Shown here: piece after piece, positions 757 through 61,200 of the stretch
Position numbering within the stretch: position 1 is the first letter of the stretch
Layout of the letters: each line of letters opens with the position of its first letter
Origin: Apostichopus japonicus
Lineage: Eukaryota > Echinodermata > Holothuroidea > Aspidochirotida > Stichopodidae
NCBI RefSeq assembly: GCF_037975245.1
Contig: NC_092566.1
Coordinates: 17,455,001-17,519,000 of the forward strand
Direction: 5' to 3'
Length of the DNA stretch: 64,000 nucleotides
The notes under the pieces: model-generated
The model's database searches: none
Seen by the model: only the letters and a program-made list of their open reading frames with translations
What the model was told of the DNA's origin: nothing
Program-made: the position numbers and the translations under genes

Positions 757-2700
757 GTACCTGCGGTGTGTGGCGCCCTTTTGATACCTTTCCATGTGAT
801 CAGAGCAGAATAAACAGTCATATTTCGGTGACAAATGAAATTTAAAAACCATATCTTGACGTCATTTCATATCAAATTTAAATGACTAAAACTTCGTCGA
901 ATTCCACTTTTGTCACGAGAGAAGCGTTTATTTGGGTTCTGGGAATCCGTATAAGTTATCCTGAGAGATATTTGAGAACTTTCATTTTTGGCCGAAATTT
1001 GGCAATTTCGTAAGGATATACCCTTATGATTTTGTTCGATTTTGGCCAAAATCACGACTTTTTTAATTTTCCCCAAAATTGTACCTGCGGTGTGTGGCGC
1101 CCTTTTGATACCTTTTCATGTGATCAGAGCAGAATAAACAGTCATACTTCGGTGAAAAATGTAATTTAAAAACCATATCTTGACGTCATTTCATATCAAA
1201 TTTAAATGACTAAAACTTCGTCGAATTCCACTTTTGTCACGAGAGAAGCGTTTATTTGGGTTCTGGGAGTCCGTATAAGTTATCCTGAGAGAAATTTGAG
1301 AACTTTCATTTTTGGCCGAAATTTGGCAATTTCGTAAGGCTATACCCTTATGATTTTGTTCGATTTTGGCCAAAATCACGACTTTTTTAATTCTTCCCAA
1401 AATTGTACCTGCGGTGTGTGGCGCCCTTTTGATACCTTTTCATGTGATCAGAGCAGAATAAACAGTCATATTTCGGTGAAAAATGAAATTTAAAAACCAT
1501 ATCTTGACGTCATTTCATATCAAATTTAAATGACTAAAACTTCGTCGAATTCCACTTTTGTCACGAGAGAAGCGTTTATTTGGGTTCTGGGAATCCCGTA
1601 TAAGTTATCCTGAGAGATATTTGAGAACTTTCATTTTTGGCCGAAATTTGGCAATTTCGTAAGGCTATACCCTTATGATTTTGTTCGATTTTGGCCAAAA
1701 TCACGACTTTTTTAATTTTCCCCAAAATTGTACCTGCGGTGTGTGGCGCCCTTTTGATACCTTTTCATGTGATCAGAGCAGAATAAACAATCATATTTCG
1801 GTGAAAAATGAAATTTAAAAACCATATCTTGACGTCATTTCATATCAAATTTAAATGACTAAAACTTCGTCGAATTCCACTTTTGTCACGAGAGAAGCGT
1901 TTATTTGGGTTCTGGGAGTCCGTATAAGTTATCCTGAGAGAAATTTGAGAACTTTCATTTTTGGCCGAAATTTGGCAATTTCGTAAGGCTATACCCTTAT
2001 GATTTTGTTCGATTTTGGCCAAAATCACGACTTTTTTAATTCTTCCCAAAATTGTACCTGCGGTGTGTGGCGCCCTTTTGATACCTTTCCATGTGATCAG
2101 AGCAGAATAAACAGTCATATTTCGGTGACAAATGAAATTTAAAAACCATATCTTGACGTCATTTCATATCAAATTTAAATGACTAAAACTTCGTCGAATT
2201 CCACTTTGGTCACGAGAGAAGCGTTTATTTGGGTTCTGGGAATCCGTATAAGTTATCCTGAGAGATATTTGAGAACTTTCATTTTTGGCCGAAATTTGGC
2301 AATTTCGTAAGGCTATACCCTTATGATTTTGTTCGATTTTGGCCAAAATCACGACTATTTTAATTCTTCCCAAAATTGTACCTGCGGTGTGTGGCGCCCT
2401 TTTGATACCTTTTCATGTGATCAGAGCAGAATAAACAGTCATATTTCGGTGAAAAATGAAATTTAAAAACCATATCTTGACGTCATTTCATATCAAATTT
2501 AAATAACTAAGGCTTCTCAAACAGGGATTTGAGAACTTTATTTTTGCCCGAAATTTGGCAATTTTGTAAGGCTATACCTTTATGATTTTGTTCGATTTTG
2601 GCCCAAATCACGACTTTTTTAATTCTTCCCAAAATTGTACCTGCGGTGTGTGGTGCCCTTTTGATTCCTTTCTATGTGATAAGAGTAGTATAAACCCTCA
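757..2700. repeat. 324-bp tandem satellite, about six units
   Basis: The marker GTACCTGCGGTGTGTGGCGC recurs at 757, 1081, 1405, 1730, 2054 and 2378, and a variant (GTGTGTGGTGCC) at 2637. Spacing is 324 bp (once 325, last unit 259 and diverged). Units are nearly identical, suggesting recent homogenisation. The period is a multiple of three, so the same ~69-residue minus-strand frame reappears in each unit. I read that frame as a by-product, not a gene. Confidence 0.93.
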
Positions 2701-19500: not shown

Positions 19501-21906
19501 TGAAAACATTTGGCAAATATTATAGCAGACTAGATGCTGGGAATAATTTATCCAGTACATCGCATCGCAAAATGCTACACAGTATTAGCTACTGTAATTG
19601 CCGTACGAATGCAAAGATGTACATAGCAATTTTGTACATAGGAAACATAGAACTTTATCAGCTCTAGACAAAATTCACAGCTTTCAAAACTGCTACAAAA
19701 ATTTTGAACAAAATTCCTTGTGACAATACAGTTGGCGAGTTGAGAAAAATGAAAAATGAACAAGTTATTGCACTACTGGAAGGCCTGCACAATACCACAC
19801 TTAACAATACGGTAAGTATATATACATTCATTTATAAATTTATATAATTATTAATCTTATTTATGTCAAAGTTTGAATTGTGCAATGTTCTATTATATAA
19901 CTAACGTGACCAATTCTTGGTTCCGAACCGATGAGAGAAATTATTGATGATACTTGTAACTTAAGTAACCAAACAGCCATGTCTCAACTTAGTAGCTTTT
20001 TAAAATAATAAAAGTCAGGGCTTTCTCAAGATCTACAATTTTTGTCTAATCCTTCAACTGGTGAGTATTTAAACATTAAACAGGTTATCGGGTCGCCTGC
20101 CACGTGTGGTCTTCGCATCAGTATTGATCTTGGCGGCGGGGGGGGGGGGGGAGGTAATGATACTTGTTGCTGTTGATTTAGAGGTGTTTTGGCATTGTTA
20201 TCAATCAGTAGGGGTACTGAATTAGGGTAGCTTCAGTAATTAAATATATACTGACATAGTCTACTGTACAGTACTGGCAAATATATTGTACAGACTTCAC
20301 ATACAATTTTATCATTTTGGGCTTGATTAAGTACAGTGCAGTACTTCCGATAAACTGCGCGCTTTGTGCAGAGTAGTGATGTAAAACAATAGGCTTGTAA
20401 TTACATTAATAGTTTTGCTTTCATATGTCAATTCCTGCAAGAAGTGAACCTTCTGTGACTTGACATTCATAGACTAAGCCTAGAGGGCTTCAGTAGGTCT
20501 GAAAACTAAGTATTTCATACTAGCGTAAAAGTCCACACTATGCCTTCTTGATAAATTTATGTCATGAATGCTGATTGTTCACAAAAGTTAACAAAAACCG
20601 TAAAGTCATGAATGTTAACTGAGGGTTGGTGGACCTACTCACAATTCACAACCTTACTTCACTCTACCTTGAGCATATCAACACAAATTATTCTTAAAGT
20701 CCCATTATGCAATCAATCTCCACATCTTTCTTCTTTATTCTTGAGTTTTAAATAATAACACAATCGATTTGATTGAGCAAGTTTAAAAAGAAAAGGTGTC
20801 CTGTCTTTGCTACACAATTGGTAGAGCTAAAAACATTAATCGGACACAAACCGGGGAACCAAATGGGCTAGTCTAGGCATAGTAATGAGGAACATGTCAC
20901 GTGACTTCCATGGTTGGTACTGTACATGTTTTCTTAACTATAGTATAGATGTTTTTTTACTTTTTGTGAGATATGTCATACTGTTGCCTAGAGACTAAAC
21001 CTGCATTTTTTTTTTAAATTGATGGGTAGCCTATGGCATTAGCAATAGGTATGAAATACAATGGATATACTAACAACATGAATTGGGGTAGTGGTCTGAA
21101 GTACTATAACAAATACAAGTTGGGCCTAACTTTAGAATCTGTACCATATGATTAAGAACGTATAGGGGTTAGGAATTAGGGCTAGCTAGGGGCAGGGAAT
21201 ATGGGTTAGGAAGTAGGGTAAGGGAGTAGGGTTAGGGGTTAGGAATTAGGGTTAGAAAGTAGGGAATAGGAGTTAGGGAGTAGGGTTAGAAAGTAGGGAA
21301 TAGGGTTAGGGGTTAGGAAGTAGGGTTAGTCGAATGGTACGGATTCTAAATTAGTACCATTAATACCATAAAAGAAACCCTACAAATTGACAATTCATAA
21401 TCATGGACGTTAAAATATGAATCTAAGAGACTGACTTCGGTCAGCTTGCGGCTTTGATAAGCCAATGATGGCTTCATCGCGAGTTCCTGTTTGCAGGATC
21501 TAAAATTTACATACATACATACAAATGTAGCCTAGGCCTAGGCCTACACTGTAGCCTATGCTAACAAGTAACAGACCGAGACCCTATATTTGTCCTGCAC
21601 TGACACAGGCTAATAGTAATAATACTAATAATAGGTCTAGGACTATATTTGTATCTCACCAACTTCATGAACCCCTGGATTGCTGGATATCTCGATAGCT
21701 ATGAGTTCCCTCCCTTCTACGCTCGGTATAGAAAGGCTGTACACTCGCGTAATTTCTGGACAATCTGCATTGACATCGTGTAGGATCTGTGTCATTTGAT
21801 CATGATCTTGGTAAACCCAATCATGATCTTCTACTGAAAATCCACCATCACTGGAGGTTGCCAAAACCAGGGAGAATACCCCCAATAGAGAGCAGAAAAC
21901 CCTCAT
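7349..21906 (-). CDS. CPE: carboxypeptidase E-like metallocarboxypeptidase (M14, N/E subfamily), 7 exons
   Basis: Exons (minus): 21660-21906, 13657-13853, 11550-11735, 10952-11249, 10570-10709, 8725-8824, 7349-7560. They sum to 1380 nt = 459 aa with matching phases and GT/AG borders throughout. Signal peptide at about 1-20. The M14 domain has zinc ligands H94/E97 (GNMHGNEA) and H234 (SANLHGG), substrate-binding R171 (DLNRNFPD), Y316 (MQDYNY) and catalytic E327 (TIELSC). A transthyretin-like domain (~357-440, [16 protein letters not shown]) and a short C-terminal helix follow. The family removes C-terminal Lys/Arg from peptides; CPE does this in secretory granules to make neuropeptides and hormones. 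By remembered family features, CPE fits best (length, GDYWRLL, amphipathic C-terminus); CPN1 or CPM-like is the alternative. Intron 1 is 7.8 kb. Confidence 0.93.
7735..8480 (-). repeat. AGGTCA-family repeat in carboxypeptidase intron 6, inverted copy
   Basis: Repeated TGTTGACC, TTTGACCTCT, GGATCCACATA/GGATCTGCATA and CTTTTTGAGTT phrases are the reverse complement of the 3.2-4.5 kb family. Near 7766-7822 the phrase ACCTGTTGACCCCTTGA occurs twice. No exon-like frame is seen. Confidence 0.5.
8725..8824 (-). CDS. CPE: carboxypeptidase E-like exon 6 (transthyretin-like domain)
   Basis: The acceptor is GTTTAG. It encodes [20 protein letters not shown] then GIDHDITT, and ends one base into an Ala codon at G|GTAAGT. 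Confidence 0.93.
8960..9330 (+). mobile_element. CT-rich retroelement 3' region (possibly Penelope-like)
   Basis: A pyrimidine-rich stretch (8960-9260) is followed by TTTGAAGAAGATCCTGCTAG then GATCATAACGTCAGGCC. The GAAGAAGATCC-loop-GGATC...ACGTCAGGCC arrangement recalls 3' regions of dispersed retroelements in marine invertebrates. The element class is inferred from a remembered pattern. It sits in carboxypeptidase intron 5. Confidence 0.35.
10077..10145 (-). mobile_element. tail fragment of tRNA-type SINE
   Basis: TAATAATAATAACAAATTAC, TATATAGCGCTTAATAC and CAAAGCGCTTTACAAAGTA match the tail architecture of the fuller SINE copy at 62515-62822, including its orientation. Only the tail portion is recognisable. 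Confidence 0.6.
10570..10709 (-). CDS. CPE: carboxypeptidase E-like exon 5 (catalytic Glu)
   Basis: The acceptor is TTCTAG. It encodes [20 protein letters not shown], carrying the Tyr and catalytic Glu, then [15 protein letters not shown]. It ends phase 0 at ATG|GTAGGT. Confidence 0.94.
10952..11249 (-). CDS. CPE: carboxypeptidase E-like exon 4 (third zinc ligand)
   Basis: The acceptor is CTCCAG. It encodes [20 protein letters not shown], supplying the third zinc-binding His, then [11 protein letters not shown]. It ends one base into a Gly codon at GTAAGT. Confidence 0.95.
11285..11549. repeat. ~70-bp minisatellite, about four units, at exon 3 donor
   Basis: Units share CTGGTAACAG.TTC.TCACACACCAGTT plus GAATACTT. 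At least the unit near 11477-11487 holds ATACTTAC, which on the minus strand is GTAAGTAT, the same donor core as exon 3 (11544-11549). The array is the downstream part of carboxypeptidase intron 3 next to the splice site. Confidence 0.75.
11550..11735 (-). CDS. CPE: carboxypeptidase E-like exon 3 (substrate-binding Arg)
   Basis: The acceptor is GGTCAG. It encodes [20 protein letters not shown] and ends [10 protein letters not shown] at a strong GTAAGT donor. The donor directly abuts the minisatellite at 11285-11549. Confidence 0.95.
12995..13268. repeat. ~115-bp AT-rich tandem repeat, 2-3 units
   Basis: GGTGCTTTCAGACA, CTTTTATATATA and GGCTTTGAAAA recur at about 115-bp spacing in carboxypeptidase intron 2. 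Confidence 0.7.
13453..13596 (+). mobile_element. 144-bp MITE, copy 1 (CAGG[CG]ATGAGC termini)
   Basis: It starts CAGGCATGAGC and ends GGCTCATCCCTG, giving inverted termini, and is flanked by ATATTA on both sides (6-bp direct repeat). Internal TAGCATACACAAACTGGAGC and TCTACCTCGGGGAC are shared, inverted, with the copy at 48911-49065. It lies in carboxypeptidase intron 2, about 60 bp from exon 2's donor. Confidence 0.75.
13657..13853 (-). CDS. CPE: carboxypeptidase E-like exon 2 (zinc motif HxxE)
   Basis: The acceptor is TTACAG. It encodes [20 protein letters not shown] with zinc ligands His and Glu, then [13 protein letters not shown]. It ends phase 0 at CAG|GTTAGA. Confidence 0.95.
13998..14197. 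repeat. ~35-bp minisatellite, about six units
   Basis: Degenerate units of CACTTAAACAGGACCCTGCT followed by TTAAVAGACTTTAC lie in carboxypeptidase intron 1. A short (CACCTAT)-type array follows at 14270-14365. Confidence 0.8.
14371..16059. other. intron sequence, no gene seen
   Basis: Part of carboxypeptidase intron 1. The minus frame at 15055-15474 is open but low in complexity, with no domain and no paired splice sites. Confidence 0.5.
16060..20350. repeat. intron region enriched in TACTGTA/TACAGTA
   Basis: The palindromic words TACTGTA, TACAGTA and GTACTGTAC recur dozens of times (clusters near 16090-16130, 16510-16735, 17745-17815, 18850, 19140-19275, 20260-20345). They are rare in the rest of the window. 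The region also holds a two-copy ~127-bp duplication at 17857-18125. No coding exon was recognised. Confidence 0.6.
17857..18125 (+). repeat. two-unit ~127-bp tandem duplication
   Basis: AAAAGTTCTAATTAATTAAC, AATCCACTGAAAA and AGTTTGAAAGATCTAT occur in both units in carboxypeptidase intron 1. Confidence 0.8.
21160..21330 (+). repeat. degenerate telomere-like TTAGGG/AGTAGGG array
   Basis: GGGTTAGGG, GGAATTAGGGTTAG and AAGTAGGGAATAGG words repeat at 6-12 bp spacing in carboxypeptidase intron 1. Only part of the array is exact TTAGGG, so it may be an old interstitial telomeric tract or a convergent minisatellite. Confidence 0.65.
21425..21521 (+). mobile_element. SINE/LINE-tail element with (ATAC)n end, fragment
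   Basis: CTTCGGTCAGCTTGCG, ATGGCTTC, TCGCGAGTTCCTG and a terminal (ATAC)n tract match the right half of the insertion at 29694-29905. It is the second copy of that family in this window. Confidence 0.7.
21660..21906 (-). CDS. CPE: carboxypeptidase E-like exon 1 (signal peptide, start of catalytic domain)
   Basis: ATG at 21904-21906 is followed by a hydrophobic signal sequence ([19 protein letters not shown]). The exon then encodes [19 protein letters not shown] and ends one base into a Gly codon at donor G|GTGAGA. That base joins GT of exon 2 to continue G-EPEFKYVG, the expected family sequence. Confidence 0.92.
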
Positions 21907-23946: not shown

Positions 23947-24952
23947 TCGAAAAACTTTTATATAGACAACTTAAAATTCCAGAAGAATTTTGAGATCTAT
24001 AGCCTAGTTGACATTTCGATTGAGTAAAAAGATGAGGAAATTGTAAGACAAATTAGACTATTTGTAGATAAAATGAAAGTTGAAAGAGTTGACATTCCAA
24101 TGTCGCATTCGAGCGCCAATTTATGATACGATATAGCTTCCTATCCCTGCACTGCTCTAACATTTTGCACCCCATTGGACCAAGGAAATGGTAAGACCAA
24201 ATTTAGCACACTTTTTTGGGGGCATAGGGGTTGGGGTGGGGGGGGGGAGGTCCATGTGTTGTCCCAAACATTACTGACAAAAGGAAGTTTTCAAAAATTC
24301 TTTTCCCCACATGTTTATCAGGTTTATTTGAGAAGTATTTAATTCAATATCACGAGATTGTGAAAAATTGACGTAACTTCATGTGAAATGTTGAAATTTG
24401 CGATTTGGCAGTTTATTTGGCTCAATGTTGGTATCAATGGAAAAAGAATTTGGGACAAGACTACCACAGAAAACCCTTAGAATTTATTTTTAAGATAGCA
24501 GATATTGTATGATTTTAATTTTCCTCACATGTGACGGAGACTAATAGAAATCATCTTCCATATAGCTAAGATATTAAATCTCTTTCTTGGCCCACCTTGG
24601 GGCACAGGAGGACGGTTAAAACTATAGAGCGTTAGAACTTCTAGAGAGATTCTTGTCAGAACTTTTTCGAAAATTTGATTTGCTACGAAATTGGGGAAAT
24701 GGTGTGGTAGGACTGCATGTTTTCTGAAACCTAGTTTTGGACTCAGTGGGACCAATGATGTACTTGCTGGAATTGGATTTAGTTATAAATAAACAACAGA
24801 GAAACAGACACATGTTAGAATTAGGTCAAAATTTGTTTACGCTATAACGGTAAACTTGTATTAAACCCAACAATCGGCCTCTGACGTCAACAAGTCTTCA
24901 AAACACAATTTGCATCGAATTGAATACTAAAAATTAATTGAATATTCATTTT
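23947..24952. other. no recognisable gene
   Basis: Unique AT-rich sequence with a G-run at about 24235-24250. The minus frames at 24525-24813 lack recognisable motifs. This is the 3' flank of the unknown gene that begins at 24953. Confidence 0.45.
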
Positions 24953-25581
24953 TCATGTGTCATCAGGAATATCGCATCCAAAGAGTTGAACAAATAACTT
25001 TCCAGCGGTATCAAGGAATGACGTCATGTAGTAAGGACTAGACACTTCTTCTGATTGGTCAGTGTAGCTCCTACTGGCGAGTTTTTCAATGCACTTACAG
25101 TACACGCTCAATTTCGGCTGACGGTCTGTACTAATGAAGCTGAACAGGTTCCTCTTAATCTTATCTTTGAGCCCTTCAGGTTGTGTCTCATCAAGGAGAT
25201 GGTAAGCCTCTTTCAGATCCTTTCTGAATGAGCTGTTGTACCCAAAAGAACTTTGCAAGGGATCTTCGTGACTGACTTTGATGACTGGCTTTGCGATGGA
25301 TTCGCCACGTCCGCGTTCTTCTTCACTTTCAACGGCGTTTGCTATCGGTTTGCGTTGATCAAGTGGAAAAGAGTCAAGCGCCCTCTTTCCGTTAAGGTCT
25401 TCTTTTTCTGGCTTTAGCAGAGACTTTCTCCAATTTCGATGTAACGTCTTCGTGACGTCATCGGTAATTCCAATCGTCATCTTGGAGCGATGCATGATAG
25501 GAATTTTCTCCTCCTTGACGATGTCTTGAAGGAGCACAGCGTTGTTATTGTTGGCATTACCAACATGATTGATTGTTAAAT
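24953..25581 (-). CDS. copy A exon 2 (main coding exon)
   Basis: The acceptor is TTTGACAG; the exon is open for 209 codons to TGA at 24953-24955. It ends GKLFVQLFGCDIPDDT. Over the last 101 residues it differs from copy B at 12 positions by my count. Confidence 0.85.
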
Positions 25582-28086
25582 CTGTCAAATATAATAACGT
25601 TAATATTACACGGCCCCGTTACAGTACATCATGCAATTTTCACGTTTTACATTAGTTTGATGTGCCTACGATGTATACTTAATAGTTTCTACCAAACTTC
25701 CAGTTAAGCTTTATAATTTATACTGCAAGAAATGTATGTGAGCAACGACATATTTAGGAGCTTTCACAGGAGATAAATTTAATGTAGTCAAGCAGTGGCG
25801 GAGAAACAGGGGGGGTTGGGGGGGTTTTAACCCCCCCACTTTTTGAAGAGGGGGGGTTGGCCCACACAATCAACCCCCCCTAGTTTTTGCCAGTAATGTT
25901 CTGTTATAGCCTATGTTATGTGCTCCAAATGGCATAATAAATCAAATTATTAAATTTGAAATTGTTAAAGTCATTTCAACCTTTTACCTGGTAGGCTACA
26001 TCAACAATTAACGACCGAAAACCGAGTTAGAATTGACCGACACATTATTTCTAGCCCCTTTCCCCCACCTTGCGCATTGGAACTTGTAGCTCATAGCGCT
26101 AACTTCACCCCACAACAGAAATACACAAAATAACGTTTTGTTGCTGTTGAATAGCTTTGGAACTGCATACACTTGCCAACTTCAACGAGGTGAAGGAAGG
26201 AAAAGAAAAAGAAGAAAGAGAGAAAAGGATGGAGTAGAAAATACGGCAAGAAAACGGGAAGAGGAAGAGGAACAGTGACAAAATTATTCGAATTTGTAAA
26301 GCAAACAGCAGATATCACATCATATCAGTGAGCATGAAAATGGCGTTCCACGATAAACAGCCTCCAAACCATGGGCGCAGATCCTGGTGAGGACAGCGGG
26401 ACGCGTACCCACCAACATTTTCAGTAGTGGGGACATGATATACCGTGTCCCCACCAATTTGTCTTTGCATTTCAAGTTCCCCTGTATGGAACTTTGGCGC
26501 AGTTTGATCCAGCATTGTGCAAATGACATGTAGCAGTTCTCATTTTATTGTATTTTATCCACAGTTGTTAAATATAGGACGGAAATCGCATTTGCGGCAG
26601 CCTATATTTGTTTTCTGGGAGAGGACCCCAGACCCATCGTATATACAAAAGTCTACTTGGATTATTTGTCCCCTGATTTTCTTTCTGCAGACGCCCATGT
26701 ATTTCTCCAAACTAAATTTCTAAGCAATGAGATCTAAAACTTAAGGAGGTTTAGGAGCATCATTAGGTCTGGGAAGTGTTATTTCCGGCGATCTGGGAGG
26801 TATATTTGCCCCAAAAAATCGTACGCTACGCGCGAACCCATGGTCGCGCTCCGCTTAGATAGTGTCATAGAACAGACACGCGTCCCCACCAATATCCAAG
26901 ACTGATCTGCGCCCATGGTCAAAAATGTCGATGTGTGTAGTGTTCGGTTTCGGAAATATCTGGTATATTTTTATTTCCTTGAACGAAATTTTTTAGTAGC
27001 CGTCTGAATTTTCGAAAATTCCCTAACCAACATTCTTCATCATACTTCATCATACTTGTGCAATTTTGACCCGTCTGTTAGGGTTTGAAGGAGGTTTTTC
27101 TATATCGGTTGTCCATTGATGATATTTTGTGCAACATTATGGGTATGTTTTGAAGTGAATTTATTCACGAGAATTGTGAATTTTCAAATTCTGAACAGTG
27201 GGGCTGACGGATATTGTGGGCCGCGATGAAGAATCACCTACAAAAGCAATGATCCACAGGATATGTGATGAAGTCGAACATGATGTGTGACTGGTGACAA
27301 TCTTCAAAAAGGTTATAGATGAAAAAAAAAGTATTTGGAAAAAACTTGGTTGTCAGGCAAAAGTGTACATATGGTTGGTCAGTTTCAAGCCATTTCAAGT
27401 GCCATTTCCGGTGATCTGGGGGTACCAAAACCAGAAATTTTCTTGTACGCTGCGCGCCAACCAATGGTGGCGCTCCGCTTAGATAGTAATACGCGCCCCC
27501 CGGGTTAGAAAATCCTGTATACACCCCTGGTTAAATCCAGCTTTTCAAGGCCTGGGCAGTGCCATTTACTGCAATCTGGGAAGCAATATTTGCCAAAAAA
27601 TTCTTGTGCACTTCGCGCCAACTTATGGTGGCGCTCCACTTAGATAGTGAGCCAGCAGTTATGACTTTTTATTTCATCAATGGCCTGCAACCCCCCCACT
27701 TCTGACAAGAAATCTCCGCCACTGTAGTCAAGTTTGGACAAAGCGAACTTTTTCGATTATCTTGTTTTTCTTTGGAACGAGTCTATTATTTATTTAAAAT
27801 TTCTGCCAAGATTAAAGTTGATAAATTCTATATGGTACATTTATTAATAGAGAACACCAATGCAGACAGCATCATGAATTTTATAAGCTTTGGAATAGGT
27901 TGCAACACTAAACACTACATTCATTAGCATATATAGATACAGTAAACTGCATCCCATTTAGCCAATTCTAAAACTGTATCATAAAAGTTATTACTATAAA
28001 TAGATAGATAGAAACTTTACCTACAAATATTCTGTCTTTGTATGAAATTGGACTAGTTTTGAGTACTTACCAAAGGTATTTTCCAT
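24953..28086 (-). CDS. unknown 214-aa protein, intact copy A of a head-to-head pair
   Basis: Two coding exons: 28071-28086 (MENTF plus one base) and 24953-25581. They join as F-DLTINHVGNANN, 645 nt in all. No signal peptide or transmembrane segment is seen. The N-terminal half is polar and Lys/Ser rich. The last ~100 residues (from LQSSFGY) are probably helical, with a core FISTDRQPKLSVYCKCIEKL that is identical in the neighbouring copy B. I do not recognise the family and assign no function. The 2.5-kb intron holds a 1.9-kb hAT element; without it the intron would be ~550 bp. The shared structure with copy B, including the 16-base first coding exon, is the main support that this is a real gene. 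Confidence 0.8.
26370..26917 (+). mobile_element. nested hAT-like element with CATGGGCGCAGATC termini
   Basis: CATGGGCGCAGATC at 26370 is mirrored by GATCTGCGCCCATG ending at 26917. It has a right-end box at 26775-26863. The flanks (CTCCAAAC and GTCAAAAA) do not form a clear 8-bp duplication, so either this copy is old or the termini are slightly misplaced. Confidence 0.7.
27398..27530 (+). mobile_element. right end of another hAT-like insertion
   Basis: A right-end box (27398-27487) is followed by a C-rich run, GGGTTAGAAAATCCTG and CACCCCTGG, a plausible hAT right terminus (CAGGGGTG inverted). No matching left end was found within the host element, so it is truncated or decayed. Confidence 0.5.
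28071..28086 (-). CDS. copy A exon 1 (16 coding bases)
   Basis: ATG at 28084-28086 encodes MENTF plus one base, then GTAAGTAC. Copy B has the same length, phase and donor (ATGGAAAATATAGTTT|GTAAGT). The preceding AACAACAG could be a splice acceptor, so a 5' UTR exon may exist further upstream. Confidence 0.78.
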
Positions 28087-29158
28087 GATTTTATCTGTTG
28101 TTAACAGATAAACAAGTTAAATATGTTGTACGTAATAGTAAATATGTCTTCACTTTTCTAAGGCAACTATTGTTGTGTATATGTTTTCTTTGTTTTTCAC
28201 ACACAATTGTGTATTACATCTATTGCTCTCTGTGATTCAACAATGACCCGTGTGAGCATAACGTCATTATTATACGGCGTGCCCCAGATGCGTGAATGCG
28301 ACTTAAGAGTATGCACATTGACTGGGAAAACAGCGTCAGTCACAATTTTTGTTTTGGGCGTTTTGCGTGACCAGCCAGACAACATTAATGTATTTGGTCA
28401 TGCGGTATGATGTGCGCAGGTTGTCGGCGTTCTGAATAAATCAAAGACTTCCGGCGCTAGATTGATGACTCCTATACTGTTAACACACAAACACATGAAG
28501 CCAGTACACGCGCGCGTCTGCAGAATAAGATTTCTTGAAGTGCGTTCGTATACACGTAATGATGAAGCCAACGTGCGCGCGTATATGCGCTGGGTATTCA
28601 TTTAGCTGTTGTTCGTTTTGTGAAACTAGTACTAGTAGTAGTAAGTTGAGTCTCGTCTATCCGACATGCTCAGTGATTAACCTCCGCGACGTATCACGAT
28701 CTTGCGCAGGTTTATTACTTCCTCGAAATTGTTAATGTTAACGTCCTTAAATTGCGACTTTATTTTTCCAAGCAAGGTAGTCACGGGTAGTCACGGGCAG
28801 TTTTGTGAAACTGCTTTGCCGTATTTCGTTGTGATATGTTACCGCGCCGATACAATTTTTTTTTTTTCTGCGCAAATGTGGCATCAGCAATACTGCAACT
28901 AGTATTACTGCGGCGAAACGGACCGTTTGCGCATCAGGACGCGTTATAATATTTGCACCTCTGGCAGTGCCATGAAACAACGCATAGTTCTACATTGTTT
29001 AGTCACAAACAACAGGAGGTTTGTTCAATATGGTATAAACAGAAACAAACAAAACACATATATACACAACAAAAGTTGCCACAGAAGTGAAAACATAATT
29101 ACTACGGTATTACGTACAATATATTTAACTTGTTCATCTATTTGAAACAGATACAATC
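28087..29158. promoter_or_regulatory. shared divergent promoter region of gene pair A/B, inverted duplication
   Basis: The ~1.07 kb between the two start codons is partly mirror-image. CATATTTACTATTACGTACA, CATATTTAACTTGTTTATC and TATACACAACAATAGTTGCC upstream of A (minus, 28097-28190) match TACGGTATTACGTACAATAT, ATATTTAACTTGTTCATC and TATACACAACAAAAGTTGCC upstream of B (29050-29146). The centre (about 28480-28700) is richer in CG and CGCG. Transcription start sites are not visible directly; the regulatory role is inferred from position and conservation. Confidence 0.6.
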
Positions 29159-30438
29159 ATGGAAAATATAGTTTGTAAGTACTGATTATTCAACTAATTT
29201 CTGTTATAAACTATAATGTTTTCGCTTTTCTCTCGGCCACAACATCAAATGTAAGTTGAGCGGCTCTACTTGATAATTATAGATCACTAAAATCATTAAT
29301 ATATTACGTATAACTATTGAACTCCCTTTTTACTCTAGTTATACTATAACAACGATAGCTGCATGGAGTAGGCTATAGGCTTGTTTGGAAATGTTATATG
29401 CAAATAAGAACATTGATCAGTTTTAACAGTTACGCGTAAAGGTAGGTCAAGTGGACACTACAAATGTAAGCCAGAAATGTTGAAACCGTCTTGCGTAATG
29501 CAAAGTTAATTAACATTTTGTACTCGTTGTTTTTGGACAGATCCAAAAATCAATCATGTTGGTAACGCCAACAATAACAATGCTGTGCTCCCTCAATACA
29601 TCGACACGGTGCATAACATTCCCATCATTCATCGCTCCAAGAAGAAGCATGGAACTGCTGGTGATGACGTAACGGAAAAGTTACATCGAAATTTTTACAT
29701 CCCCGTTAAAAGTTACATCCCCGCCGACAGCAATGTGTGTCGTCTGGCAAGGGTGTTGTTCAATAACAACTTCCCGACATGGACGTTAAATGGATGTGTG
29801 CCGAGAGATTGGCTTCGGTCAGCTTGCGAGTCTACAAGCCTCCATGGCTTCTTTCGCGAGTTCCTGCTTGCGGGAAGATCACATATACATACATACATAC
29901 AAATTGGAGAAAGTCTCTGCTAAAGCCACGAACGAATCGCCCTGATGAAAAGAGGGCGCTTGACTATTTACCATTTTGCCGAGCTGATATGACAAAACAT
30001 GACGTTGCAAGCCAGGGCAAAACTGAGGGCGTCACTCCAAAGATCCTTAAACCCGTTGACTCGAACAACCACTTGCTATCTGTTCCTTCGCACAAGCGTC
30101 TTAAAGAAAACCAAGGGAGCTTTAAGAATCCTTTGCAAAGTTCGTTTGGTTACAGCAGCTCATTCAGAAAGGATTTGCAAGAGGCTTACCATCTCCTTGA
30201 TGAGAAACAACCTGAAGGGCTCAACGATAAGATTAAGAGGAACCTGTTCAACTTCATAAGTACAGACCGTCAGCCGAAACTGAGCGTGTACTGTAAGTGC
30301 ATTGAAAAACTCGCCAGTAGGAGCTACACTGACCAATCAGAAGCAGCCTCAAGTACTAACTGCATGACGTCATTTCTTGATACCGCTGGAAAGTTATTTG
30401 CTCAACTCTTTGGATGTGATATTCCGAATGACACATGA
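29159..30438 (+). pseudogene. copy B of the unknown gene, frame broken by a 212-bp insertion
   Basis: Exon 1 is 29159-29174 (MENIV plus one base); exon 2 is 29541-30438. They join as V-YPKINHVGNANN. The frame is homologous to copy A up to KLHRN. A 212-bp insertion (29694-29905) then shifts the frame by two, and the homologous frame resumes as NWRKSLLKP and runs to TGA at 30436-30438. Without the insert, B would be about 233 residues, with an extra segment (around KTEGVTPKILKPVDSNNHL) absent from A. The last 101 residues are about 88% identical to A. This is the only frame lesion I find, so inactivation may be recent or polymorphic. An ATG inside the insert (29779) opens a frame that joins the conserved half, so a truncated or novel N-terminus is possible. 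Confidence 0.8.
29694..29905 (+). mobile_element. SINE/LINE-tail insertion with (ATAC)n end and AAATT target duplication
   Basis: AAATT occurs at 29689-29693 and 29901-29905, while copy A has a single AAATT at the same codon position (CATCGAAATTGGAGAAAG). The insert ends in (ATAC)n. Its right half matches the fragment at 21425-21521. Its direct effect is a +2 frameshift of copy B. Confidence 0.88.
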
Positions 30439-31549
30439 AAATGAATAATCAAATCACTTATAATGCACAATTGTAACGTGAAGCCTATGCCACCCGACCC
30501 AGCGAGAGGTTCTCGTCAATAATACATAATTGTTTAGATAAATTACTGTTTGTTTTGATTAATTACTTTCTTAACTCACTTAAGCGAAAGCACTGATTGC
30601 TTTGTTATGGCGAATAAATTTTTCTTAAATTTGTAAATTTAACTTTGCTGATTAACTTCTGTCCCAATCCTTTGCGAAAGTCCAATAGTCCGATGATAGA
30701 AACTCCACCCTCCTCTTACTACTTATATACGCTAGAAGCTTTTGAATTCATAACATGACCAAATCAGTATTGTTCCCCAATATTCTAAAAACTCAAATAT
30801 CGAACTTCAGCACACAGTTTACTATAGTCTACCACAAGCAAAACGGTCTTTGATTACTGAGAAGTGTTAATAACTAATTTAATGATGTCCAATGTCCGGG
30901 AACAACTCCTTAATTGGGTCAGAACCTTCCAGGAAAACCACCATGTAATTTAGCATATTTAAATTAGCTACACTATTAATAACCTTTAAATGCTGCTCGG
31001 GACGTACGTCACCTGTTCCTAACAAAAAATAAAGTGATAAGTCGAAGTCTACAATTGACAATGATAAGTAGTATAACATTAACAATACTGATATCAACAA
31101 CATTGATTTTATAGTAATATATTAAACGTCGTTCCATGTAGATTGTGATCACGTGATTAACGCCTAAAGTGGCATTCTCCAGTGAGTCAGATATGTTGCA
31201 TTTTTTTGGTTTGTGGCTTCGATGATATACATCAATACCAAGATACGTAGTGCGACAGTTGCGGCAAGTCAGGCAATTGAAATCACTGAAAGATCGTCCC
31301 ATCCCTCTGGAGTAAAAATAGTTGGATTCATTTCCCAATACGTTGGTTCTCGTTGTTAGAAATTATTAAAAAATATTACGTCAAGTTGGACATGTCATCA
31401 ATGGGCAAGGTTTCAGCAATTCTGAGAAAGGCTGCTATTACCTATAGTGAAAACCTTTAGAGACTCAAAAAGCTTGACGCATTTAATTATACAAGTCCAT
31501 GGAGAAATGATATAACAATCATATATACGTACTATAACTTAAGTGTAAC
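30439..31549. other. intergenic; AATAAA at 30613 and unassigned minus frames
   Basis: AATAAA at 30613-30618 is a possible polyadenylation signal for copy B. The minus frames at 30879-31103 and 31009-31338 (FNCLTCRNCRTT; GTGDVRPEQHL) are preceded by acceptor-like sequences. I could not link them in phase to the Ly6-like gene, so they stay unassigned. Confidence 0.4.
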
Positions 31550-31872: not shown

Positions 31873-34092
<2,220 letters not shown>

Positions 34093-43740: not shown

Positions 43741-45260
43741 AGGTTTATATCATTAGAATCTCCTTTACATAGCCTAGCAATGTAGGTTGGGTTTTCATCA
43801 TTAGAATCTCCAGTACATAGCTTAGCAATGTAGGTTGGCTTTTTCAGCATTACAATCTCCATGACCTAGCTAAGCAATGTAGGTTGGGTTTTAGTCATTA
43901 ACATCTCCATTACCTAGTTTAGCAATGTAGGTTGGGTTATCATCATTAGAATCTCCATTACCTAGTTTAGCAATGTAGGTTGGGTTTTCATCATTAGAAT
44001 CTCCATTACCTAGTTTAGCAATGTAGGTTGGGTTTTCATCATTAGAATCTCCATTATATAGCATAGTGATATAGGTTGGGTTTTTAATCATTAGAATCTC
44101 CATGACCTAGCTAAGCAATGTAGGTTGGGTTTTAGTCATTAACATCTCCATTACCTAGCTTAGCAATGTAGGTTGGGTTTTCATCATTAGAATCTCCAGT
44201 ACATAGCTTAGCAATGTAGGTTGGGTTTTTAATCATTAGAATCTCCATCACCTAGTTTAGCAATGTAGGTTGGGTTTTCATCATTAGAATCTCCATGACC
44301 TAGCTTAGCAATGTAGGTTGGGTTTTCATCATTAGAATCTCCATTACATAGCTTAGTATGTAGGTTGGGTTTTTAATCATTATAATCTCCATTACCTAGC
44401 TTAGCAATGTAGGTTGGGTTTTCATCATTAGAATCTCCAGTACATAGCTTAGCAATGTAGGTTGGCTTTTTCAGCATTACAATCTCCATGACCTAGCTAA
44501 GCAATGTAGGTTGGGTTTTAGTCATTAACATCTCCATTACCTAGTTTAGCAATGTAGGTTGGGTTTTCATCATTAGAATCTCCATCACCTAGTTTAGCAA
44601 TGTAGGTTGGGTTTTCATCATTAGAATCTCTGTTACAAAGCTTAGTGATGTAAGTTGGGTTTTTAATCATTATAATCTCCATTATATAGCTTAGTATGTA
44701 GGTTGGGTTTTTCATCATTACAATCTCCATGACCTAGCTTAGCAATGTAGGTTGGGTTTTCATCATTAGAATCTCCATTACCTAGCTTAGCAATGTAGGT
44801 TGGGTTTTCATCATTAGAATCTCCATTACCTAGTTTAGCAATGTAGGTTGGGTTTTCATCATTAGAATCTCTGTTACAAAGCTTAGTGATGTAAGTTGGG
44901 TTTTTAATCATTATAATCTCCATTATATAGCTTAGCAATGTAGGTTGGGTTTTCATCATTAGAATCTCCATTACCTAGTTTAGCAATGTAGGTTGTTGGG
45001 TTTTCATCATTAGAATATCCATTACCTAGTTTAGCAATGTAGGTTGGGTTTTCATCATTGGAATCTCTGTTACAAAGCTTAGTGATGTAAGTTGGGTTTT
45101 TCATCATTATAATCTCCGATAAATAGCTTAGCAATGTAGGTCGGGTTTGTGAGTTTTTATCATTACAAATCTCAATTACATAGCTTAGTATGTAGGTTGG
45201 ATTTTTCATCATTAGAATCTCCATTACTGTACATAGCCTAGTGATGTAGGTTAGGTATTT
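43741..45260. repeat. 48-bp minisatellite, about 31 units
   Basis: The unit contains TAGCAATGTAGGTTGGGTTT, TCATCATTAGAATCTCCATT and ACCTAG. Most units are 48 bp, with some 46-50. On the minus strand the 48-bp period reads as a 16-residue repeat (NGDSNDENPTYIAKLG), but length variants break the frame and there is no start or splice context. It lies 0.8-2.3 kb downstream of the SORBS stop codon. Confidence 0.95.
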
Positions 45261-46043
45261 CTTCTCCTATAACAGTGTATATAATAGTGCAACCCCACCC
45301 ACCAACCCACTTGAATTCTTCTGGCTGTACCAACATACTAGGAAGAATGTTACTCCTCCTCAAGGGTCTTGTGCACCCACTTGACTCTTCTTAAAATAAC
45401 TCACAAAACATCTCTTTGAAAACCGTGTCTCTTCCGATCGCTGTCGGCCATCTTGACAGCTTCGTAGAGAGACTTGACTCCAGCGACAGATACTGTAGGA
45501 TTTAGCTATCGTACAAGGCTTTCTTCTTCCTGGCAGGTTTAGGGCTTCTCTACATTTCAAAAGGCAATCCATTAAGGCACTCTCGTCTTCATCTTCCAGG
45601 CCGCAAATTAAAAACCGAACTTTTCATCCTGTGAGAGGGAGGTATACATATTCAAGGAAACCAACTTGACTGAGAGTGACTGCCGTCCCACCCTAATTCT
45701 CCCACTTTCTTTCCCACCCTCCCTCCATCCCTTCTCTCCCTCTTCCCCCCCCCCCCCCCCTTAAAAGTATCCTTGCTAAAACCAATTCTCTGCAGGAAAT
45801 ATTGAGGATTGATAAATCACACAAATGACAGTCCATCAACAAGCGGAAAAATGTACCGAGGGTGGAAATATTAATGTTGTTGATGGTTGGGAATGACTGA
45901 CCATAACCAGACTCTCTAGCATATTTTTTGGTCTAGACTGAAGATGGATAGGTCAAAGGTTATCCAGCAATCCAGTCAACAGGACTCTTGCAGGGAGAAG
46001 GAAGTGGAGGGGAGAGGGCATATCAAGCTCGTAATCTTTGTTT
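45261..46043. other. 3' flank of the SORBS coding region
   Basis: Probably 3' UTR. A minus frame at 45360-45572 has no recognisable domain. A C-run is at 45747-45762. Confidence 0.45.
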
Positions 46044-55200: not shown

Positions 55201-58200
55201 TATCAAGAAGACCAATAATGTTGTGCAGGGCCTGCTGGTTATGTATGGGAGAGTAAACCAAAAAAGATAGAAAATGCTATTCCATAGTGAGCAGATTACA
55301 TCTTTGTTGTGGCTATTTCATTTATACTAGCCATAAAGACGATTGTTTCCAAACTACATATTATCGCCCAGATTTGAAAATTATTCTAATGTAGACATGA
55401 TCTGCTTGTGGGTGTGAGAATATGAGGCAATGTGCGGGTTGCAGGTTTATAGAAGACACAAAGGAGTGAGGTGACGAAGATGGCGGACTGATGAGAATTA
55501 TAGACAAAAGAATGAGAGCTACGTTAGCACATGCAGTATTACCTGTTACGTGGTGTTGCGTTACTCCAGAGGCAGTGTTAGTAGGTAACGTGGAGGAGGA
55601 GGAGGATGACGTTACATCAGTTAAGATCAAGTGTGAAGTACTGTTTGATAATTTGTTAAAATTCTGTGGCGATGATGAAATTGCATATTCATGACGTTTA
55701 TGATAATAAGGTGTTGGTGTGACATGACTGTGATTGATCCTTGTGACAAGGTTTGGAAGACTGCGATAGATTTCTTTCGAGTCCTGCGGTTGGTTATCTC
55801 TGACGTTCAGGTCGTGCATGGCGGTGTCGGTTAAATGACTCTGTTTCTCTTGACCCGTCGGTCGTGATTGATCGAGGTGACTTTTACTAGAATTTAGGAA
55901 GACGTGAGGTGACTTGTGGTGAGTGGAGGAATTGTCGTGGCGTTGAAGTTGTGTCGGTAATCGTTGCTCGTCGGTGTCATCAACATTTGTAGGAGCATGA
56001 GCCACTCCTCCCGGCTTATATTCTCCTCGACTTGTTTCTTCAGGTGATGCATCGATGCCAAGATGGTCATTGTTCTGTGACGTCACTGACACACGATGAC
56101 GAGTAACGTTGGTAGCAGTCAGGTGAGGGTCCACGACTGCACCCGTTCCATGCACGTATGCATCCGCAGCGGTTACATCTGACGATCTAGATTCTGCCTC
56201 TAGGATTTCTTCCCAGTTGCGGTGCACTTCATGAACCTTGTCTCTATCCATCTCCTCGACTTCAACATCATCACTTGCAGGAATTGCTGATTTTTTAAAC
56301 CAACTCTCCATTTTCTTATCTATGAGATCAGGGCCGTCATCTTGTGGAGAGTAAGCCAAATGTTTATCAAATCTTACACGTTTCTTTTCTGAAGTTTTGT
56401 TTGGGTACAATCGTGGCAACTCTTTTCCGGGAAATGTTGTCCTTACCTCTTCCTCACCATCATCTACTCTACCTTTTAACAACTGTTCCCAAATCTCATC
56501 TTTCTCAGTTGGGTTAAGATCGGATTTATATTTATCTGTTTGTCCATGCTGCGTACCTTTGACCGAAGAGGACTTCTTGTTCAGCTGTAAATAGAGTCTA
56601 TCGAAAGTGGCTGAATACCTCAATTCGGATGGTGATATCTGACCTTCCATGCTCTGTACTCTATGTTCATCAACATCGACTTCCTTGGTTTTAATCTCCT
56701 TCCTCTCCTTCCCTTTGACGTTACTTTTACGGTCGATGTCTTCCTTAGAATTTCGATATAGACCCACATCTTCCACTAAGTCTGCCCTCCGGCTATCAGC
56801 ATTAGGTATCTTCTCAGTGTCATCGCTCCTTCCATTCTCCTCTCTTTGGCTGCTGTTGTTTTCCCTCTCGACGCCTTCCAAGCCGTGCTCGGCACTCAGC
56901 CCTCTAAAGTTATAATACTCACTTCCCTGTGCTAATATTTTCCTGACAAAGTCATTGTGTGTAAGTTCTTTCGATACCGTATAACTGCCTGAATTGCTCT
57001 CAGTGGCTTTGATGATGCCATAATGCGCAGGGCTACTTCCCTCACCTCCAACGCTCTTCGTTCTCAGATTTCTATGGAAGTTTGATTCATCCCTGCTGCC
57101 TACTCCGGTATCCGTTCTCCCAGAATCAGATAAATACTCCTGCGGTAACGTGGCACGACTGAGTGGATTGCTAACGATCATTTCTCTCGGAGATTCAGAT
57201 GAGTCCGCAATACCAACTCGATGGTTCTCTGTTAACAATTGCCGATTGGCTTCTTTCTTGTCAACAATAGTTGTCCTCCCGTTGAGCTCTATCTCCTCCC
57301 AGTCGACTTGGACCTCTAGATTATCTTTGACTTTACGGAACCCCAACATCTCTGAGAGAGAGAACTTCGGGCCTTGATGACGATCGGAGCTTTCCACAGA
57401 AAGGTTCTCAAGACTTGTGTAATAGTTTAATGCAGCTTCAAATTTATCGGCATTGTCGGCATCATCAAGAGACTTACTAAAATATTTCTCTTTCCTTTTG
57501 GAATCGCTTTCATTCGACGATAGGGAGAAGAGTTCCTTAATTTTGAAGAAAACATCGGAGGGCAATGTTGATTTTTTGACAAGGTTGCTATATTCCTGAT
57601 ACCCCAGTCTTTGCTCAGTTGACGACATCTCCGCATCGGGACTAGGTAAACTTACCATCGCCACTCGCTTTTCACTATTCTTCCTTTCTGTCGAGATGTT
57701 AGCCACATGTGTTTCATTCTTTTCTTTGCTTTGAATGCTCCCATCTTTGATGATTAATGGATCAGCACTTTCTGCCTGTCTTCTACTTGAAAGGGATGGA
57801 TCATTGATAGATGTTTCATCATCAACGATTAATTTGTCATCACTTGCGCTAGCATCGGAAACGCTTTGACCTACGCTGCTCCAAGAAGGATCATCGACTA
57901 AAACAGCTGAACTTTCTGAATCGAGGTTTGACTTCCTCGACAGATAGAAACTGTCAATTAAATCCCCAGATTTGATGTCAAATCCATTATAACTGACATC
58001 CTCATACATGGTCTCATTCCTTTCACTTCTCCAAGGTGGATCATCAATAACATGGGAAGTATATCTACTGTAGCATACATCATTACTCATATCAAATTCT
58101 TCTTCACTGTCCCTTATATCTTTATCATCACTTTTCCCAGGTGATTTTGTATCATCGTTTAGTGATGGATGGTTATCATATGTATCTCCAGAGTAGTGCT

Positions 58201-61200
58201 GGTGCTGTTCAATTCCCATGACCAATGGAGTATTGTCCTGATCAAGTCTTTGGTCGTCCTCATCATCATCACTCAAATCAACAATGGCACTGCTGACACC
58301 AGAGTGTTCATGATTAACATTAGATGGTACGACCTTAAGGGTATAATTGTCATCATCATCCACATAATCATCACTTAAATCAACAATACCACTGCTGACA
58401 CCAGTTTCTTCATCATCCACATTGACTTGCCGACCTGTCTGACTATAATCATAATAATCATAATTATCATCATCCACACAACCATCATGGTCATCCTCAT
58501 TAACATCATTCATAGATGGCATCTCATTTTGTGTATCATCACTTAAATCAACAACACCACAGCTGACACCAATTTCTTCATCTTTCACTTTAAGTGGTAA
58601 CAACTTCATTGTACAATCATCATCTACATAATCATGATGATCAATCACATTATTGCTATCATCATTCCGAGATGTAATATCATTCTGTGTATCAACTACT
58701 CCAACAGTATCAGCACTTTGTTCAGCTGACCAACCTGCGGCATGGTCATATGGCAGTCCTCTTGCAATGGGCGACAGTTCCTCCGATAAAACATGGACAC
58801 TGCACTCAGCAGAGTCACCTTCCTCATCTTTTCCACCCTTAATGACAGTCGAACTATCGATGGGTATTTCTGTAGAGTCTTGTTTCACTTGAGGATCTCC
58901 ATGAACAACCCCAGGGACATCAACCAGTTGCCAGGATAAACCATCTTCATGAACTCTTTCCACTACTGCTGTACTACTGACCTTTGACCTATCTAGAGAA
59001 TCAGTATTCACATTGACTGAATATTCTGCATCAGATAAAATACGGTAATCCAATCCTTCGTAATTTCCACTGTCAACCCTATCAAGTTTCTGCATTAAAG
59101 TGCCTACATTTTTGTGAATCTCTCCTGGAGGTGGATACCTATAATTACTGCCATCTGTGATGGTCTCGTCTCTGTTGAGAGTTTCATCATGCTCAAATGT
59201 CCTTAAAGGGGAAACCTCTTCCAAAGTAGATCCTGCATCCTCGGTAGTTGTTTTCCAATTACTATCAATTGGAAAATGGTGATCATCAACTTTGCTAGTC
59301 TTAATCAACTTCTTAGATCTCTTAGATGGGTGTGAATTTGCTTCATATTTTGATGGGTCCTCAACAAGACATGTCTGTATCTTATTTTGGTTATTTGTGT
59401 CGCCTTTGGCGCTTTCCTTCCCGTTCGGAGGGGCACCGCCAAGATCAAGACAAGGTTTTCGAAATAGGCCTTTCCCTCTAACATCGGTGACCGTTCTCAA
59501 CTTTCCTCCGGCCAGAAGTAATAACCATAATAGTTCATGACAGATGATGACTTTGGAGTGAAAAACCTCTTCTTCAGAGGATGAAAGATAACAATGGGAG
59601 AATGACAAATGACAACAATAGCGTCAACTATGTAATTGTTTGAAGTAGCAGGTCGTCTCGTCATGTTATTTATGACATATTGTTTACTAAAGTGGAGTGA
59701 ATGTTCTCTTGTTTATTCAAAACTGTGATTATGTTCACAAAAGTGTGAACTAAATTGCTACATGATTCTACACATTAATATGTTATGGTTTAATGATAAT
59801 ATCTTTGGTATTCAGGATTTAAATGGCAGCTTTTGATGTGGTAGAAAACTATCAGAATGTAGAAGTTCCTGACATTCATTGCCCAAGATAAATGTCATGT
59901 CCTTGTCACTATGGAAATGGATAATGTAATACAATGTACAGGCCAGATGAGGTGTAGAACTTGTATGTAGAACTTGCATTAGATATGGAGTTTACGAGAT
60001 GATTTAGACTATCCTCAACTGCAAACTTTAATAGAAGTATCTTACTTCCACTTCCAGTGACCTTTACTCTTATACGACACAACAATTGCCTAATTACTAG
60101 GTTCATGTAAAGTGAACTCATAGTGTGTATGTAAGTTGAGATATATATTTAATTTGTAGCCTGTTTGTTGGTGGAACAATTAAGAAGAGGAAACCTTAAT
60201 GAGCTCATGAAGGTCTGCTTGACCTTTGATGGGTTAGTAAAGAAAGAGGATATAGGAAGCTGTTAGAAACACTGATATGCTACTAAGAAAAATTGAGAGC
60301 AACTGCCAACTTCGAAACACAAGACAGACCCAACAGCCGAAGGGAGAATACTACCTATGCCATTTTTAAACTTCATTTTGGAAAAAGTCTCTAACATTAT
60401 GTACTAGATAACAACAGCTAAAGACATTCTATGTCATCAGCATCTTAATTCTCAGGACAATTTGAACAAAAAGTGTCCCAACAACATATTAGAGATAAAT
60501 AACCAGTCACACTTAACTATCTCCAGAAACACTAATTTATTGTGCAGCTCACCAACAATTTGATATAAAAGATGGCTCCTCCATCATAGAATAGTTTGGT
60601 CACACAGTTTGTAAGAAATGTAGCAAACAATAAGAAACTAGAAAAAGAATTTCTTTTCAAAATGATCTTGTTGGATCGATAGCCAAAATATTTTATGTTG
60701 GACTGTTAATATGAATCTCTCCCATAGATGACAAAGAGAGGGGGGTGGGGGGAGGGGGAAGAGTGAGGAGTTGGGTCTGTCTTGCAAGTTCCACTGGCTT
60801 CATAATGCAGACATGTTAGTATCTTTACAGATTAGTAACTGCTTTTACATCCAGGTGAAACAATGACTACATTCATTCTATACCAGTGGTTTATACCAAT
60901 AATTCATGCTTTGGCCTTTGTTCCAGTATTCTTAATCTTCATCTGCTTTATCATTCTCACTTCCACCCATGACACCACATACCCAAATTTTAAGTAGCTA
61001 AAGAACCATAATGGAAATGAATGACTTTGAATTCTTCTCTTCAAGGATAAGGAATTAAATCTGGCTACCTGTCTAAATGTTAATATTGCTACATTTGAAG
61101 CAGAGGGGGGGGGGGGGGAGGGGGAGCAGTATTGAATGAATGATTGCAACATTTTGCAATCATTTTACTTTGAAAGTCAATGAAAAATAATTCCCTGTTA

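Follow-up and report, generated by a model that had tools for sequence, protein, structure and literature searches.

Two homologous copies of a small gene lie on opposite strands of the Apostichopus japonicus window (the whole 64,000-nt stretch of DNA that was analysed), copy A on the minus strand and copy B on the plus strand, with their 5′ ends facing and about 1.07 kb between their ATGs, the arrangement of an inverted (head-to-head) tandem duplicate. Self-comparison of the window pairs the inverted arms 24950-25263 with 30128-30441 (93%), 25458-25589 with 29533-29664 (82%), 25361-25443 with 29894-29976 (80%), and 28044-28137 with 29108-29201 (80%). In both copies the first coding exon is only 16 nt long, is phase 1 and is directly followed by GTAAGT (28071 to 28086, minus strand, ATGGAAAATACCTTTG, in A; 29159 to 29174, plus strand, in B), and the phase-1 second exons begin at 25581 (minus) and 29541 (plus). 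An earlier note on this DNA had proposed an inverted duplication with a common 16-base first coding exon and splice phase, and the mirrored arms and matching anatomy bear this out. Its claim of equal exon structure holds for the first exon and the intron phase and fails for the second exon, which in B is not intact: a 212-nt insert interrupts it (29689 to 29900). Since the position and phase of the intron are common to A and B, the duplication appears to have taken place at the DNA level and not by way of a retro-copy.

Copy A has an intact two-exon frame, with a whole CDS of 214 aa. Its intron of 2489 nt (25582 to 28070, minus) separates the first exon from a second that codes up to a TGA (24953 to 25581, minus), and holds an inserted 1.93-kb element (25793 to 27723) with inverted ends AGTGGCGGAGA/TCTCCGCCACT, flanked on each side by the duplicated 9-nt sequence GTAGTCAAG, whose two copies begin at 25784 and 27724. 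Scored with a rough consensus matrix, the first donor of A ranks among the best 0.96% of GT sites in the window and its acceptor among the best 7.1% of AG.

In copy B, the first exon is followed by a 366-nt intron (29175 to 29540, plus) and by the portion of the second exon that lies 5′ of the insert (29541 to 29688, plus). By genome search, the insert is a 5′-truncated tRNA-derived SINE on the plus strand, with its body at 29718-29900; AAATT stands at its start and is repeated just 3′ of it. Since its length is 2 mod 3, the frame is shifted: the portion 3′ of the insert (29901 to 30438, plus) is open to a TGA in a frame that differs from that of the first portion, and B in its present state reads 132 aa, up to an early stop at 29921-29923. 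Joined across the insert, the flanks give 233 codons with no internal stop. B thus carries a frame-disrupting copy of a dispersed repeat, as a pseudogene made by mobile-element insertion would. A genome search with the insert scored 40 of 1343 first-look candidates, namely the window copy and 39 others, and all 39 of these others are 100% identical to it over 183-184 nt, which makes the insertion young. The SINE shows 0 changes in 183 sites, whereas A and B differ at 11 of their 61 synonymous sites (Fisher P about 1e-7). Hence, in this assembly the “divergent pair” of the earlier note can at most have existed until recently, and B reads as a freshly broken copy, not as an established second gene.

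It is improbable, though not absurdly so, that B still works. For this, the SINE would have to be spliced out as a new intron, or supply part of one, or else translation would have to start at ATG 29779 within it; the C-terminal region would then continue to be produced. There are 157 GT..AG pairs able to restore the B frame, and the donors of the 8 listed fall in the top 5-13% of GT, about where the first donor of B itself falls (top 10.4% by the same rough matrix); the best-scoring pairs join donor 29735 (top 7.2%) to acceptor 30097 or 29878 (top 11.6% and 13.8% of AG). However, some moderate scores are expected among 157 pairs, and the acceptors of the 8 listed pairs, at the top 11.6% or weaker, rank below those of both B (top 2.5%) and A. 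Similarly, an ORF at 29767-30438 runs for 223 codons without a stop and contains ATG 29779, but with the insert so young, an open frame 3′ of it is explicable without selection.

The C-terminal 102 codons of the two copies show 12 residue differences (90/102 identical); the figure of about 88% given in the earlier note is thus correct, and the 20-residue block that it called identical sits within an identical run of 30 residues. dN/dS in this region is 0.25 (bootstrap 0.11-0.61), a two-sequence value not attributable to A or to B. A neutral simulation predicts 16.7 residue changes, against the 12 seen (P 0.02), and the differences by codon position are 6, 7, and 10, so that a third-position excess is not clear (P 0.57). 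Also from only two sequences, dN/dS is 0.77 for the N-terminal 48 codons and 0.57 for all aligned codons, and it is 1.97 in a 15-codon stretch 3′ of the insert site. A dN/dS near 1 across the shared region, which the earlier note had named as counting against its gene, is therefore not seen in the C-terminal region; the N-terminal and overall values are less reassuring.

Like the earlier note, the profile and sequence searches recognise no known family. The pair has no match in Pfam at E<=10 or in NCBIfam at E<=1; PHROGs (E up to 1) gave none for A and a single chance-level match for B (E 0.13), and PDB sequences, searched with phmmer and a profile, gave five matches (E 0.71 to 2.4) and nothing convincing. 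For the lineage restriction that the earlier note proposed, the comparison covered these PDB sequences and viral and prokaryote contigs: none of 11 pattern matches in viral contigs or 171 in prokaryote contigs was confirmed. A search of its own genome at E<=0.001 recovers A and two pieces of B and nothing else, and the 4 matches at E<=10 are A, B, and 2 at chance level (E 3.0 and 4.2) with stops. Two structure predictions, a check likewise proposed earlier, were made from two-sequence alignments and returned helices only, with mean pLDDT of 37.7 and 48.2; they are too poor to use in a fold search. A tentative picture, put forward with low confidence, is of a soluble, intracellular protein in which a C-terminal region of about 100 aa, probably helical, and a short N-terminal motif, NHVGNANNNNAVL, would bind partners, with a freely evolving linker between them. 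The lack of a Pfam, NCBIfam, or convincing PDB relative, the low structural confidence (pLDDT 38 and 48), and the N-terminal dN/dS would also suit the notion that neither copy is functional and that the A frame is a remnant of decayed or mobile sequence. We consider this very unlikely, since the open run of A, at 221 codons, exceeds the longest in each of 30 simulated sequences (first-order Markov, window length; maximum 207), A and B have a common splice structure and a low C-terminal dN/dS, the B frame is intact but for one very young insert, and the further genome copies that a mobile element would have were not found. As to a possible setting, the locus was considered as part of a sex-determination region, and this was set aside: the neighbouring genes were sought in an A. 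japonicus GWAS paper (PMC9128100), and “carboxypeptidase”, “sorbin”, and “LG6” are absent from the portion of that paper available.

The distribution of similarity between A and B is patchy. Their introns have no significant similarity (40/300 shuffles reach the observed score), and this holds when the element is removed from the A intron, leaving 549 nt. A weak colinear match (226 columns, 54%, E 0.027) may reflect introns that are homologous but very diverged. The middle of exon 2 (97 nt in one copy, 151 nt in the other) is unalignable, with 87/300 shuffles reaching its score, whereas both sides of it are 80-93% identical. Similarity of the 3′ flanks is borderline (8/200 shuffles), and a longest identical run of 63 nt is unexceptional (P 0.095). 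Similar exon ends and about 110 similar upstream bases, set against diverged introns and a diverged exon-2 middle, fit patchy gene conversion but do not prove it. A narrow literature search for gene conversion in divergently transcribed pairs gave no match. The closest parallels are the mirror-image pairs Amy-p/Amy-d and Hsp70Aa/Hsp70Ab of Drosophila; according to the available part of the source, both undergo ectopic gene conversion, which in Amy is confined to the coding sequence while the flanks evolve independently (PMC3924832). These too, as far as that part describes them, are tightly linked inverted paralogues kept alike. Unlike them, however, A and B are only 80-93% identical in their alike parts, with a diverged exon-2 middle and one copy broken, and conversion between them is proposed from the two copies of one genome.

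The conversion step has a rival with a substantial chance, if somewhat under even, of being right: a recent simple inverted duplication, with dS of about 0.2 giving its age, after which introns, spacer, and flank lost their likeness through indels and transposon insertions. The divergence of the upstream block (about 80% identical), the N-terminal block (dS 0.26), and the C-terminal block (dS 0.21) agree with one another, a 1.93-kb element did insert in the A intron, the 3′ edge may be a duplication breakpoint, and the weak intron match points the same way. It accounts less well for the dissimilarity of the introns once that element is removed, and for an unalignable stretch of exon 2 between well-conserved sides.

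By alignment, a mirrored block adjoins each ATG (28087 to 28195, minus, for A; 29043 to 29158, plus, for B), scoring 350 where the best shuffled score was 115 (0/200 shuffles) and ending in a weak acceptor-like AG 8 nt 5′ of each ATG. The mirrored upstream sequence claimed earlier is thus real for about 110 nt of A+T-rich DNA; in the 847-nt spacer between the blocks (28196 to 29042), the two halves are at most faintly alike (9/200 shuffles reach the observed score). Between 28201 and 29100, CpG observed/expected in the eight 200-nt windows is 0.98-1.80, compared with 0.62 for the whole window, and this CpG-rich spacer is a candidate single shared promoter. We find no support for the earlier idea that the promoter was duplicated with the genes: the mirrored block is short, has the acceptor-like AG at its end, and mostly falls outside the CpG-rich stretch. 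The distance between the ATGs and the CpG-rich spacer recall bidirectional pairs with a shared promoter (about 1 kb or less, in the partial sources at hand); unlike such pairs, A and B are paralogues, and the mirrored block is largely outside the CpG-rich part.

Taken together, an inverted duplication, a recent disruption of B, and an intact A make up a quite probable account of the locus. The duplication would have left a small two-exon gene in two copies that point away from each other. The C-terminal region may then have been under purifying selection, with gene conversion between the copies from time to time, and together these would explain why the exon ends are still similar; introns, spacer, 3′ flank, and exon-2 linker would have drifted apart or undergone replacement. 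A would be the source of the working protein, and B, freshly broken by the SINE, may still be intact in some individuals. It is possible, although we hold this only tentatively, that a taxonomically restricted gene, its facing copies held alike by exon-limited conversion, is now losing B, with the SINE allele segregating alongside an intact one. In kind, this is ordinary gene duplication and loss; with so young a break, the locus could offer a natural experiment on how an echinoderm loses a gene copy and on exon-limited conversion, and if the SINE allele does segregate, early pseudogenisation could be followed directly, along with its consequences for conversion between A and B.

The SINE itself merits a comment. 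A 182-nt stretch of its body is exact in 11/11 other copies fetched, and in all 11 it is immediately preceded by GGTTCGATTCC or GGTTCGAATCC; 9 of the 11 have a longer tRNA-like head, the likeness being to tRNA box B. This head, together with the (CATA)n in which the family ends, as does the copy in B, is as in tRNA-derived SINEs with simple-repeat tails; unlike these, the copy in B is 5′-truncated, with 29 nt on its 5′ side that are absent from other copies. A literature search for tRNA-derived SINEs of sea cucumbers, as far as its partial sources go, turned up only a piRNA review. The assembly paper (PMC10344927), in the part available and if it describes the same genome, puts SINEs at only 0.02%; in that case, the insert in B is a sign that a genome with a very small reported SINE share holds a young SINE family.

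By gene models built from the sequence alone, the window contains one gene in two copies facing each other. In copy A, on the minus strand, coding begins with a 16-nt exon (28086-28071); across an intron of 2489 nt, the second exon runs from 25581 to a stop at 24953, for a predicted product of 214 aa. Copy B, on the plus strand, shares this 16-nt first coding exon (29159-29174), from which an intron of 366 nt separates a second exon that starts at 29541. The ends of the exons, together with the upstream block (the stretch mirrored beside each ATG), lie in inverted arms of 80-93% identity, and the final 102 codons of the two copies differ at only 12 residues. Moreover, the open run in A is 221 codons, compared to 207 for the longest in 30 simulated first-order Markov sequences. 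On these grounds, the core observation of the earlier note, a facing duplicate pair, is right. However, that note also credited B with an exon structure matching that of A, and here it missed a 212-nt insert, between 29688 and 29901, that breaks the second exon of B. Since the insert length is 2 mod 3, the two halves of the exon lie in different frames, and in its present state B reads out as 132 aa, with a stop ahead of the conserved C-terminal region. A is probably the single working gene. B, an inverted duplicate, would have kept its coding frame up to the insertion of a young SINE, which broke that frame in the sequenced haplotype.

Copies of the insert are dispersed in the genome. A search there yielded 1343 first-look candidates, of which 40 were scored, and the 39 of these other than the window copy are all 100% identical over 183-184 nt. 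All 11 other copies fetched carry an exact 182-nt stretch of the body (29718-29900 in B) with GGTTCGATTCC or GGTTCGAATCC directly upstream of it, and 9 of the 11 have a longer tRNA-like head; this upstream sequence resembles tRNA box B. From the identical genome copies and the upstream sequence and tRNA-like heads of the others, the insert reads as a young SINE, truncated at its 5' end and tailed by (CATA)n. The pentamer AAATT occurs both at the start of the insert and just 3' of it. At 21402-21526 there is an older relative of 77-78% identity. The joined flanks form an open frame of 233 codons, and thus the SINE is the sole lesion seen in B. Over 183 nt it shows 0 changes, whereas A and B differ at 11 of 61 synonymous sites (Fisher P about 1e-7). 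In the assembly paper for A. japonicus (PMC10344927), SINEs amount to just 159,644 bp (0.02%), yet 4,963 tRNAs are listed. Given these figures, and provided that they describe this genome, the SINE family of the insert may be concealed among the "unknown" repeats or the tRNA calls of that annotation. The sole tRNA call in the window, a tRNA-Thr (CGT) at 62747-62820 (-), has a score of 33.4 (Rfam cut-off 29 bits) and, after it, a stretch resembling a SINE; judged by resemblance, this call may be a SINE head.

Judged by its sequence, B could still work, either by splicing round the insert or by starting at an ATG inside the SINE. As many as 157 GT..AG pairs restore the frame, and the 8 best pairs listed have donors that rank at top 5-13% among GT sites, comparable to the donor of B's first coding exon (top 10.4%). 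Their acceptors, at top 11.6% or weaker, nevertheless fall below B's own (top 2.5%). The ATG at 29779, within the SINE, leads into the C-terminal frame.

For the C-terminal 102 codons, dN/dS is 0.25 (dS 0.21, dN 0.051; bootstrap 0.11-0.61), but it is 0.77 for the N-terminal 48 codons and 0.57 for all aligned codons (a figure that takes in a middle without reliable alignment); with two sequences only, such constraint is not attributable to A or B singly. Equally few C-terminal residue changes arose in 2% of neutral simulation runs. Differences by codon position number 6, 7, and 10, with no clear skew (P 0.57), and the 15-codon stretch 3' of the insert site has a dN/dS of 1.97.

The similarity between A and B closely follows exon boundaries. 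Compared base by base with no gaps, the copies have an identity of 0.9 over the first ten bases of the intron, 0.8 over the last ten, and 0.3-0.6 further in; past the stop it is 0.5-0.6 over twenty bases and then 0.0-0.4. By ungapped extension, the first of the inverted arms continues into A's intron for 27 nt. Between the intron interiors, similarity does not exceed that of shuffles, whether the 1.93-kb element in A's intron is removed (score reached in 40/300) or retained (25/100), and one weak colinear match was seen (226 columns, 54%, E 0.027). The middle of exon 2 is unalignable (87/300 shuffles), similarity in the 3' flank (8/200) and spacer (9/200) is borderline, and that of the upstream block is strong (0/200). 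With dS at just 0.21-0.26, clearly alignable introns would be expected. Patchy gene conversion between the facing copies, halting at unlike sequence, would explain unlike introns beside alike exon ends. A likeness is found in Drosophila Amy, for which a review describes concerted evolution restricted to coding sequence (PMC3924832). Turnover by indels and transposons is the rival candidate for the same pattern.

The duplicated promoter of the earlier note was not borne out. The mirrored block is about 110 nt (28087-28195 in A; 29043-29158 in B), and the 847-nt spacer between (28196-29042) is CpG-rich, with an observed/expected ratio of 0.98-1.80 in eight 200-nt windows (28201-29100), compared to 0.62 for the whole window. 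A single candidate promoter, shared and located in the spacer, is thus more likely than a duplicated one. An AG 8 nt 5' of the ATG is conserved in both copies and might mark the 3' end of an intron in the 5' untranslated region, but it scores unremarkably as an acceptor (top 17%).

As the earlier note had stated in recognizing no known domain, the protein has no convincing relative in Pfam-A, NCBIfam, PHROGs, or PDB sequences. Structure prediction, which that note had proposed, did return helices, and helices only, at low confidence (pLDDT 38 and 48). In its own genome (671,581,487 bases, 35 contigs), the exon-2 protein query at E<=0.001 matched A and two pieces of B only, and a query with the C-terminal region, relaxed to E<=10, added just two chance-level places, both with stops.

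Elsewhere in the window, Pfam matches on the minus strand comprise zinc carboxypeptidase exons (Peptidase_M14; 10.9-21.9 kb, 3 of 4 over the cut-off and one under), SH3 exons at 46.0 kb and 49.1 kb, and, at 7.3 kb, a carboxypeptidase regulatory domain below threshold. An open frame of 1420 codons at 55361-59623 (-) has no Pfam match at E<=0.1. The 1.93-kb A-intron element (25793-27723) is flanked by a 9-nt duplication, has short ends in inverted orientation, and contains units, about 60-160 nt long, with related stretches at 23.8, 37.4, 39.3, and 39.9 kb. A long GAY-rich repeat at 32094-32631 is readable as an aspartate run, and arrays with longer repeat units, seen as repeated open frames, lie at 867-2412 (-) and 43891-45266 (-).
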